Source: Chryseobacterium gleum
Lineage (GTDB): Bacteria; Bacteroidota; Bacteroidia; Flavobacteriales; Flavobacteriaceae
Length of the DNA stretch: 64,000 nt
Direction of reading: 5' to 3'
NCBI GenBank assembly: GCA_945897915.1
Contig: CAMDGB010000004.1
Span: 1 to 64,000, forward strand
Each line of letters opens with the position of its first letter. Within the stretch, counting starts at the first letter, position 1. Both the position numbers and the translations under genes were made by a program. Positions 61,739 to 64,000 of this stretch are shown here, in pieces. The notes below the pieces were generated by a model that did no database searches, was not told the DNA's origin, and saw only the letters and a program-made list of their open reading frames with translations.

Positions 61739-61842
61739 AACTTTATTTATCGAGTTTCAAAAATACAAAAACAAGTTAAATAGTTGTAAAAAAATATCTA
61801 AAGACTTTTAAATGCTTACTTTTGCAACTTAAATTTTTATAC

Positions 61843-63588
61843 ATGAAATTGCTTTATAAGTATTTACAAAAACACAAATTACTGCTTTTTTTCGCACTTT
61901 TGATGGCAACCATAAACATTTGCTTTAGTTTATCAGATTCGATTATTACGGGTAAATTAATGCAAGATTGTGGTGTTGGAATCGCAAAATACAAGGGAAA
62001 TGAAATCGGTTTCATAAAATCAGTTGGCTTTTGGTTGGGACTTTCGCTTACCGCAGCCATGATTTCTCGTATCACAAAAAACTTTCAAGATTACTTTACC
62101 AATATTGTGATTCAAAGAACTGGTGCTGAAATGTATACAGATGGTATAAAAAAGTCGTTAGATTTACCTTATGAAGATTTTGAAGATCAAAGTAGTGGCG
62201 AAACATTAAGTAAATTGCAAAAAGCCAGAACCGATTCTGAAAAGCTAATTACACTTTCTATTTCCTTGATTTTTCAAACCATAATTGGATTCATTTTTGT
62301 AATTGTTTATATTTCTCGAATTGATTATAGAATTGCATTTGTTTTTGTTTTAACTGCGCCCATTATTGCCTTTATAAGTTCAGTTTTAGGAAAAAAAATA
62401 AAAGCCGTATCACGAAATATCGTTTCACAAACCAATTCCTTGGCAGGTTCTACCACAGAAAGTTTACGAAATATCGAATTGGTGAAAAGTTTGGGCTTAA
62501 CCAATCAAGAAGAAAACAGACTAAATTCAAATACACTCAAAATTTTACAACTTGAAATTCAGAAAATTCGTTTTATTAGAAGTTTGAGTTTCATACAAGG
62601 TACAACGGTGCATTTTATGCGAACTTGCGTAATTTTCGGTTTGTATTATTTCTTATTTAGCGATAAAATTGTAGTTGGCGATTTATTAACAATGGTATTT
62701 TTTACCTTTTTTATTTTTAACCCTTTGCAAGAATTAAGCGCTTTTATCATCGCTAAAAATGAGACAAAAGTTTCTATGGAAAATTTTGAGAAATTGTTAA
62801 AAGCCAAATCTGAACACCGCCCAGAAGAACCAGAAAATTTTGGAAAAATAAGTTCTTTGGTATTTACAGATGTGAGTTTCAAACACAAAACTGCCAAACA
62901 ATTTGCAGTTGAAAATATAAACTTTTCTATTAAACAAGGCGAAACTGTTGCATTCGTTGGGCCATCTGGATCCGGAAAAACTACTTTAGTCAAATTATTA
63001 GTTGGTTTGTATCCGCCAGCAATTGGTCATGTTTTGTATAACGGTATCGATTCTAAAAATATTGATATTTTAAAATTGAGAAAACAATTAGGATTCGTAA
63101 CTCAAGATGCCCAATTGTTTTCTGGAACAATTAGAGAAAATTTATTGTTTGTGAAACCAAAAGCAACAGACGAAGAAATAATAAATGCTTTGCAAAGGGC
63201 AAGTTGTGGCAAACTTTTAGATCGTGCCGAAAATGGTTTAGATTCGACAATTGGTGAAGGCGGAATTAAAATTTCTGGTGGCGAAAAACAACGTTTATCT
63301 ATAGCAAGAGCCATTTTGAGACAGCCCAATTTATTAATTTTTGATGAAGCAACTTCTGCTTTAGATTCAATTACCGAAGAAGAAATTAATAGTACAATTA
63401 GAAATATTTCTGATGAAAACCGAATTACTATTTTAATCGCTCACCGATTATCAACTATTATGCACGCCGATAAAATTTTCGTATTAGAACAAGGAAAAAT
63501 TATCGAACAAGGAAAACACGATGATTTATTGGTTGAAAAAGGATTGTATTATGCCATGTGGCGCCAACAAATTGGGGAGAGAAAATAA
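61843..63588 (+). CDS. ABC transporter, fused permease/ATP-binding (start trimmed to MKLLYK)
   Basis: Six-TM region; Walker A GPSGSGKTT; ISGGEKQRLSIARAILRQPNLLIFDEATSALDS. Confidence 0.95.
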   Translation: MKLLYKYLQKHKLLLFFALLMATINICFSLSDSIITGKLMQDCGVGIAKYKGNEIGFIKSVGFWLGLSLTAAMISRITKNFQDYFTNIVIQRTGAEMYTDGIKKSLDLPYEDFEDQSSGETLSKLQKARTDSEKLITLSISLIFQTIIGFIFVIVYISRIDYRIAFVFVLTAPIIAFISSVLGKKIKAVSRNIVSQTNSLAGSTTESLRNIELVKSLGLTNQEENRLNSNTLKILQLEIQKIRFIRSLSFIQGTTVHFMRTCVIFGLYYFLFSDKIVVGDLLTMVFFTFFIFNPLQELSAFIIAKNETKVSMENFEKLLKAKSEHRPEEPENFGKISSLVFTDVSFKHKTAKQFAVENINFSIKQGETVAFVGPSGSGKTTLVKLLVGLYPPAIGHVLYNGIDSKNIDILKLRKQLGFVTQDAQLFSGTIRENLLFVKPKATDEEIINALQRASCGKLLDRAENGLDSTIGEGGIKISGGEKQRLSIARAILRQPNLLIFDEATSALDSITEEEINSTIRNISDENRITILIAHRLSTIMHADKIFVLEQGKIIEQGKHDDLLVEKGLYYAMWRQQIGERK

Positions 63589-63592
63589 AAAT

Positions 63593-63721
63593 AGGGTGTC
63601 CAAAAAGTTTTAATTTTGTCAAGCTGAACTCGTTTCAGCTTCTGTAAATATCTGATATTCATATACTTTTAGATTCCGAAATAAATTCGGAATGACAAAA
63701 CACTTAGTTTTTAAACACCCT
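63593..63721. repeat. 129-bp element with terminal inverted repeats and two internal hairpins (MITE/BIME-like)
   Basis: agggtgtccaaaaagttttaattttgtca ... tgacaaaacacttagtttttaaacaccct (imperfect ~28-bp TIR); internal aagctgaa-ctcgt-ttcagctt and attccga-aataaat-tcggaat. Confidence 0.7.
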
Positions 63722-63739: not shown

Positions 63740-64000
63740 TTATTTCACAAAACTAACGGCATTTTCTAAAACTTCAGCAATTCCTTTAGCATTTTTGCCT
63801 TTACCCGAAGCGAAGAACGGTTGTCCGCCGCCGTTACCATCAATATATTTTCCTAATTCACGGATAACATTTCCAGCGTTTAAACCTTTATTTGCTACTA
63901 ATTCTTTAGCAATATAACAGTGAATATTTGGTAAACTGTCTTCAATTGAAGCCAACACAACAAATGTATTTGGCTTCGAAGCTCCAATGGCTTGCGTTAA
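63740..64000 (-). CDS. alaS: Alanyl-tRNA synthetase, C-terminal portion (truncated by window edge)
   Basis: LTQAIGASKPNTFVVLASIEDSLPNIHCYIAKELVANKGLNAGNVIRELGKYIDGNGGGQPFFASGKGKNAKGIAEVLENAVSFVK, DHHA1-type C-terminus. Confidence 0.9.
   Translation of the reverse strand, partial: LTQAIGASKPNTFVVLASIEDSLPNIHCYIAKELVANKGLNAGNVIRELGKYIDGNGGGQPFFASGKGKNAKGIAEVLENAVSFVK

Follow-up and report, generated by a model that had tools for sequence, protein, structure and literature searches.

A 129-bp inverted-repeat element lies between an ABC transporter gene and alaS, two genes which converge on it near the end of the window (by which we mean the whole 64,000-nucleotide stretch of DNA that was analysed). 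The locus raises three questions: what kind of sequence this is, how it came to be there, and what it does for its neighbours. An earlier note on the same DNA proposed a non-autonomous mobile or REP/BIME-type element which may act as a bidirectional terminator. We consider it probable that the element is a MITE of the IS1182 type which replaced the intrinsic terminator of the ABC/alaS gap and is now a bidirectional terminator itself. The IS1182 family, terminator-hairpin replacement as the likely mode of insertion, and the evidence for paired arms are all new relative to that first reading. The features of the element and its surroundings are as follows.

63593-63721, no strand assigned: the whole element, an IS1182-type MITE of class A (defined below), core in the CTGAA-first orientation
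63593-63621, plus strand: left TIR and inner arm, AGGGTGTCCAAAAAGTTTTAATTTTGTCA
63693-63721, minus strand: right TIR and inner arm, AGGGTGTTTAAAAACTAAGTGTTTTGTCA (read on the minus strand), with TTTAAAT outside it
63614-63620, plus strand: TTTGTCA, the 5' half of the core-closing stem, paired in folds of both strands
63694-63700, plus strand: TGACAAA, the 3' half of the core-closing stem, paired in folds of both strands
63621-63641, plus strand: hairpin 1, AAGCTGAA-CTCGT-TTCAGCTT, with a perfect 8-bp stem (63621-63628/63634-63641)
63673-63693, plus strand: hairpin 2, ATTCCGAA-ATAAA-TTCGGAAT, with a perfect 8-bp stem (63673-63680/63686-63693)
63642-63672, plus strand: the weak central stem-loop of the cloverleaf, found in minimum-free-energy folds and absent from the alignment consensus
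63617-63642, plus strand: a REP-like unit (TGTCA plus palindrome), found elsewhere in the host genome (G000) alone or paired
63585-63592, plus strand: an A-rich flank, which on the minus strand reads as a U-tract (ATTTTTATTT) after the stem and is kept in the closest relative (G062)
61822-63588, plus strand: the ABC transporter gene (context), which stops 4 bases 5' of the element
63740-64000, minus strand: the 3' part of alaS (context), convergent to the ABC gene and in synteny with alaS in many Flavobacterium

Since the ABC reading frame ends at 63588 and the alaS frame, on the minus strand, ends at 63740, almost all of the convergent gap (129 of 151 bases) is taken up by the element. Its left arm (63593-63621) matches the reverse complement of its right arm (63693-63721) at 21 of 29 positions, which bears out the imperfect terminal inverted repeats of about 28 bp described earlier; both inner hairpins are indeed perfect, and the third stem is weaker. 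A cloverleaf is predicted from both strands, with a fold of -37.4 kcal/mol for the plus strand and -46.2 kcal/mol for the minus strand, and none of 200 shuffles is as stable on either strand (z -6.27 and -6.21). Each strand has a stable stem and then a U-tract, ATTTTTATTT on the minus strand and the weaker, short TTTAAAT on the plus strand. A terminator scanner finds no second terminator-like site in the gap, in agreement with the earlier note; it accepts only loops of 3-8 bases, so the element itself goes unreported. The closest named relatives of the ABC gene are from Flavobacterium, and the host is a member of this genus. Three MAG records in the GTDB collection (L064, L065 and L115) contain the gene at 84%, 84% and 68% identity under the titles Bifidobacterium breve, Rhizobium sp. 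and Chitinophaga pinensis, of which at least the first two look mis-titled.

The element is a dispersed repeat, as had been suspected. The host genome is a draft (57 contigs, 2.14 Mb) with seven long copies that have full arms (the window copy and L002-L007), a shorter pair (L008) and many fragments. The inner hairpin unit occurs about 48 times, and searching G000 with the unit TGTCANNCTGAACNNGTTTCAG gives 44 matches at up to one mismatch and 60 at up to three, versus 2 for a reversed control pattern. We distinguish two classes: class A (long) copies have outer arms and an asymmetric core (about 80 bp) with one CTGAA and one CCGAA hairpin, and class B consists of hairpin pairs without outer arms, plus singles. 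Of 250 genomes from the genus, 56 contain matches to a class A covariance model; the weaker matches include class B. The window element is the top match of the class model R1 across the 250 genomes, R1 having been built partly from it. Long copies are present in related species too (e.g., about 15 in G114). With a length of 129 bp, no transposase gene and several copies per genome, the element has the properties of a MITE. The stems of the unit hairpins covary among 53 distinct units: one stem position is T-A in 26, A-T in 23 and C-G in 3, i.e., paired in 52 of the 53 units versus at most 36 in shuffles. The TGTC/GACA of the core-closing stem is retained in nearly all of 18 copies, across which hairpin 2 is near-invariant. 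The element is thus multicopy, is shared with relatives and shows compensatory changes.

Several variants of the unit and the arms were seen along the way. One unit hairpin carries a loop insert of about TTTGCTTCGCCTGTTCGCnATCGCTCGGGTCAG at several loci and in several species (L336, L337, L407 and L412), and there are further loop-insert variants at L342, L344, L345 and L228 (near 6.4 kb); the insert recurs as if hairpin loops were insertion targets. In L355 (G126:C114:1138-1275), a compact terminator hairpin (GGCTGTTC-GTGA-GAACAGCC) and a run of T's stand in place of the right arm, which was perhaps taken over by a hairpin. Around the Y1 transposase genes of the genus, no cluster of GTCA, GTAG or GTGG hairpins was seen within 1.5 kb.

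The family of the element follows from its ends. We searched twelve genomes with a TIR pattern built from the elements (GAGGNTGTCTNAAAAGTC), and G022 had 23 matches versus 1 for the control. Most of these form inverted pairs about 1.77 kb apart and are the ends of a 1.78-kb IS, the transposase of which (561 aa) belongs to IS1182 (NF033551, E 7.8e-140; Pfam DUF772 and DDE_Tnp_1_6). Against the family TIR GAGGNTGTCYNAAAAGTC, the best 18-mer of the window element has 2 mismatches in the left arm and 4 in the right, and only 0.1% of random 45-nt stretches come within 4 mismatches. Young-looking copies in G114 have a clear arm consensus, AAAGAGGGTGTCTAAAAAGTCTTATTCTTGTCA (read by eye), which was the source of the search pattern. 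The candidate for the matching transposase which the earlier note had advised looking for is that of an autonomous IS1182-family IS with TIRs in common with the element, and it is found in a congener (G022), not in the host genome.

The IS of G022 (TIR GAGGCTGTCCAAAAAGTT / GAGGCTGTCCAAAAAGGC) resembles the element in its TIR, its placement after stop codons and its A/T-tract flanks; it differs in being 1.78 kb long with a transposase, and its interior is unrelated. Its copies are mostly close after stop codons and between A- and T-runs, with none in a divergent gap. Searches for an IS1182 transposase found none in G000, G062, G023, G129, G263, G084, G137 or G222, and the scanned IS1182 copies of G027, G156 and G032, some of them cut by contig ends, have no matching TIR. 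Given that no IS1182 gene was found in the host draft, its copies of the element may be relics; alternatively, the drafts may lack the partner. The G022 IS (L395-L399) has an inward hairpin and T-run (GGCTGTCC...GGGCAGCC-TTTTTTT) at both of its ends, so each end may itself be a terminator. One plain-looking hairpin in G022 (L152) was considered as a terminator with element arms and rejected, because it is the end of an IS1182 IS. In G129, many contigs (C22, C25, C33, C38, C46, C51, C62, C67, C68, C70 and C75) terminate shortly past GAGGCTGTCTAAAAAGGT; this MITE-like TIR belongs to a multi-copy repeat which the assembly probably could not resolve.

How the element entered the gap can be judged from the same site in relatives. 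In G062, the closest relative, the gap contains an A-tract, the hairpin CCCTCCAAGAGT-ATGAA-ACTCTTGGAGGG (also given as ACCCTCCAAGAGT-ATGAA-ACTCTTGGAGGGT) and a T-tract, together a bidirectional terminator of -29 to -30 kcal/mol. This plain terminator occupies the exact place of the element and is unrelated to it in sequence, and the flanks are 89-96% identical. At the site of L002, G062 has TTTAAAATCTCATCTTGATTGGTCAAGATGAGATTTTTTATTT and G000 has the element, with shared A and T runs, so the window copy (L001) and L002 are insertion polymorphisms between element and plain hairpin. These are the only two swap sites from close relatives; comparisons for G114 involve more distant relatives, and there 4 of 7 comparable sites (L325, L327, L330 and L331) are a plain terminator in at least one relative. 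The plain terminator is absent at L332 and L334 in the relatives examined and in G001 at L325 and L330, and site L328 is rearranged. Plain hairpins also occupy the ABC/alaS gap in G092 and L088, so the plain state is probably ancestral, and these outgroups suggest that the change ran from plain hairpin to element. Target-site duplications, another sign of mobility raised in the earlier note, were not seen in classic form; the two close swap sites fit hairpin replacement instead and more distant sites agree, but at other sites the relatives show no hairpin. In other Flavobacterium species, what follows this ABC gene in the gap is another long inverted repeat, TTTGTCATTTCGACGAAGGAGAAATC...GATTTCTCCTTCGTCGAAATGACA, with the same GTCA head as the element unit and a different palindrome; it lies just past the ABC stop at L067, L073, L074, L075, L076, L079, L084, L117 and L124.

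Two properties of the copies bear on function: where they lie and how their arms pair. All 45 class A copies whose neighbours could be classified are at gene 3' ends (31 convergent, 14 tandem, 0 divergent; neighbour genes called from simple ORFs, not annotation), compared with 26 convergent, 85 tandem and 31 divergent among 142 baseline gaps. The convergent excess has p 7e-10 and the divergent deficit p 1e-4, and both values are optimistic, as is the significance of arm pairing, because some copies are orthologues (G000/G062, G027/G129 and G156/G144) and therefore not all independent. In 46 copies, cognate arms pair at -17.6 kcal/mol versus -12.0 kcal/mol for non-cognate arms, a difference not attained in any of 50,000 permutations; class B shows no cognate-pairing effect (p 0.81). 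We used this test instead of RNAalifold, which did not recover the outer stem from a MAFFT alignment, since the arms of different copies are not in register there. Arms could also stay alike via template-switch correction. Taken together, the placement, the arm pairing, the swap and the lack of another terminator in the gap support a bidirectional terminator, and termination by the element is likely.

A known mode of transposition offers a mechanism. In staphylococci, IS1272 and TnSha1 (IS1182 family) recognise stem-loops and delete them with no target duplication and no target sequence consensus, a mode named "inverted-repeat-replacing" transposition; several of their target stem-loops are terminators, as confirmed by RNA-seq (PMC4923244, PMC5678879). 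They share with the element the IS1182 family and, to judge from the swap sites, probably also the removal of a target stem-loop (often a terminator) that has no sequence consensus, and the lack of target duplication. However, they are kilobase-sized and encode a transposase, whereas the element is 129 bp, non-autonomous and found in Bacteroidota, and by folding it provides a new terminator-like hairpin itself. Applied to the window, the TIRs of the element would be recognised in trans by an IS1182-family transposase, which would target stem-loops and replace them without target duplication, and in this way the element would have displaced the intrinsic terminator of the ABC/alaS gap. Once inserted, it would fold as a new hairpin, because the A- and T-rich tracts left from the old terminator lie on either side of its long inverted repeat, and would serve both converging genes as a bidirectional terminator. 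We infer the IS1182 transposase as the mover from the ends which the element shares with the G022 IS.

The other known small repeats are less similar. Bacterial MITEs are likewise small, non-autonomous and intergenic with inverted ends, and one of them, SPRITE, is a repeat of Streptococcus pneumoniae with a fold like that of a rho-independent terminator; the text of a MITE review (PMC10969869) mentions neither IS1182 nor Flavobacterium, and no description of terminator replacement was seen in it. Literature searches on Bacteroidetes REP, Flavobacterium repeats and IS1182 MITEs returned nothing closer than the IS1272 papers, and the core unit sequence was absent from the relevant literature searched.

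Of the first reading, the mobile, terminator-like limb stands, at the level of sequence, on the dispersed copies, the IS1182 TIRs, presence/absence in relatives and placement at gene 3' ends; the REP/RAYT limb does not. If the element were a REP/BIME (REPIN), a REP-associated tyrosine transposase (RAYT) would move the pair of GTCA-tagged hairpins as a unit, and the outer arms would be secondary. The inner unit does resemble such repeats (PMC3733652, PMC6006769), being an intergenic palindrome with a 5' tetranucleotide which occurs as singles and inverted pairs with covarying stems, and Y1 transposases (PF01797) are widespread in Flavobacterium, with 108 of 150 genomes having them. Yet neither G000 nor G062 has a Y1 transposase, the flanks of 30 Y1 genes are not enriched in GTCA hairpins (2 in 98.8 kb versus 3 in the 64-kb window), the tag is GTCA and not the canonical GTAG/GTGG or CGTC, and the long copies are bounded by TIRs which pair-only copies lack. 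We therefore regard this as quite improbable for the element, though RAYT mobility may still hold for the arm-less pairs and singles. It is very improbable that the arms are instead the stem of a pre-existing terminator, into the loop of which the hairpin pair was inserted. The arms do vary between loci, pair with their own partners and end in A/T tracts as plain terminators do, but their consensus is common to many loci and species and matches the ends of an IS1182 IS, and at both close swap sites the relative's plain stem is unrelated to them; these last points count against loop insertion.

Two further readings concern function more than origin. The element could be an old, inert MITE relic with no terminator role, its arms alike via template-switch correction or conversion: quasi-palindrome correction is a known mutational process, some host TIRs are degraded (L003 and L007), and the transposase was not found in the host. 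An inert relic does not account well for placement exclusively at gene 3' ends, nor for plain terminators having been replaced rather than joined by the element in a gap with no other terminator, and we think it rather unlikely. That the cloverleaf is a structured non-coding RNA with its own function is barely credible. The fold is stable and multi-branched with a conserved core, but Rfam has no family above threshold for the element, ARAGORN finds no tRNA, and both the near-symmetric fold on the two strands and the existence of copies in both orientations (among them the inverted orthologues L004 and L199) argue against one sense strand and so against an RNA gene.

The orthologues just mentioned, L004 (G000:C45:6354-6474) and L199 (G062:C6:42180-42277), have cores which are 98% identical, conserved flanks and inverted interiors, with the break within the arms, and provide one clear inversion between species. 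Recombination between the arms, or cruciform flipping, would explain it. L005 and L198 also differ in orientation and were set aside as a case of the same kind: the core of L005 is nearer to L200 (90%) than to L198 (86%), so this pair may reflect an independent replacement.

Returning to the preferred reading of a MITE in place of a terminator, we tentatively suggest a broader version of it, which we hold to be possible and somewhat short of an even chance: a transposon family which spreads by exchanging terminator for terminator, with the TIRs as terminator stem, arms that drift compensatorily and an interior that can be flipped. The transposase would remove a host terminator hairpin and the element of about 130 bp would take over its job; because the host needs a hairpin there, the TIR would drift with compensatory changes, and the asymmetric interior would be able to flip between the arms.

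IS1182-type insertions which destroy terminators should harm the host, but where the element comes with a terminator of its own, its insertion is nearly neutral. If true, this would explain how one small repeat family fills convergent gaps of Flavobacterium genomes, and hairpin-replacing transposition, described in staphylococci, would then also apply to Bacteroidota and to elements that are non-autonomous. It would also provide natural genome pairs, with the element and a plain terminator at the same site, for measuring the effect of terminator replacement, and it would warn annotators that some terminators in Flavobacterium are transposons.
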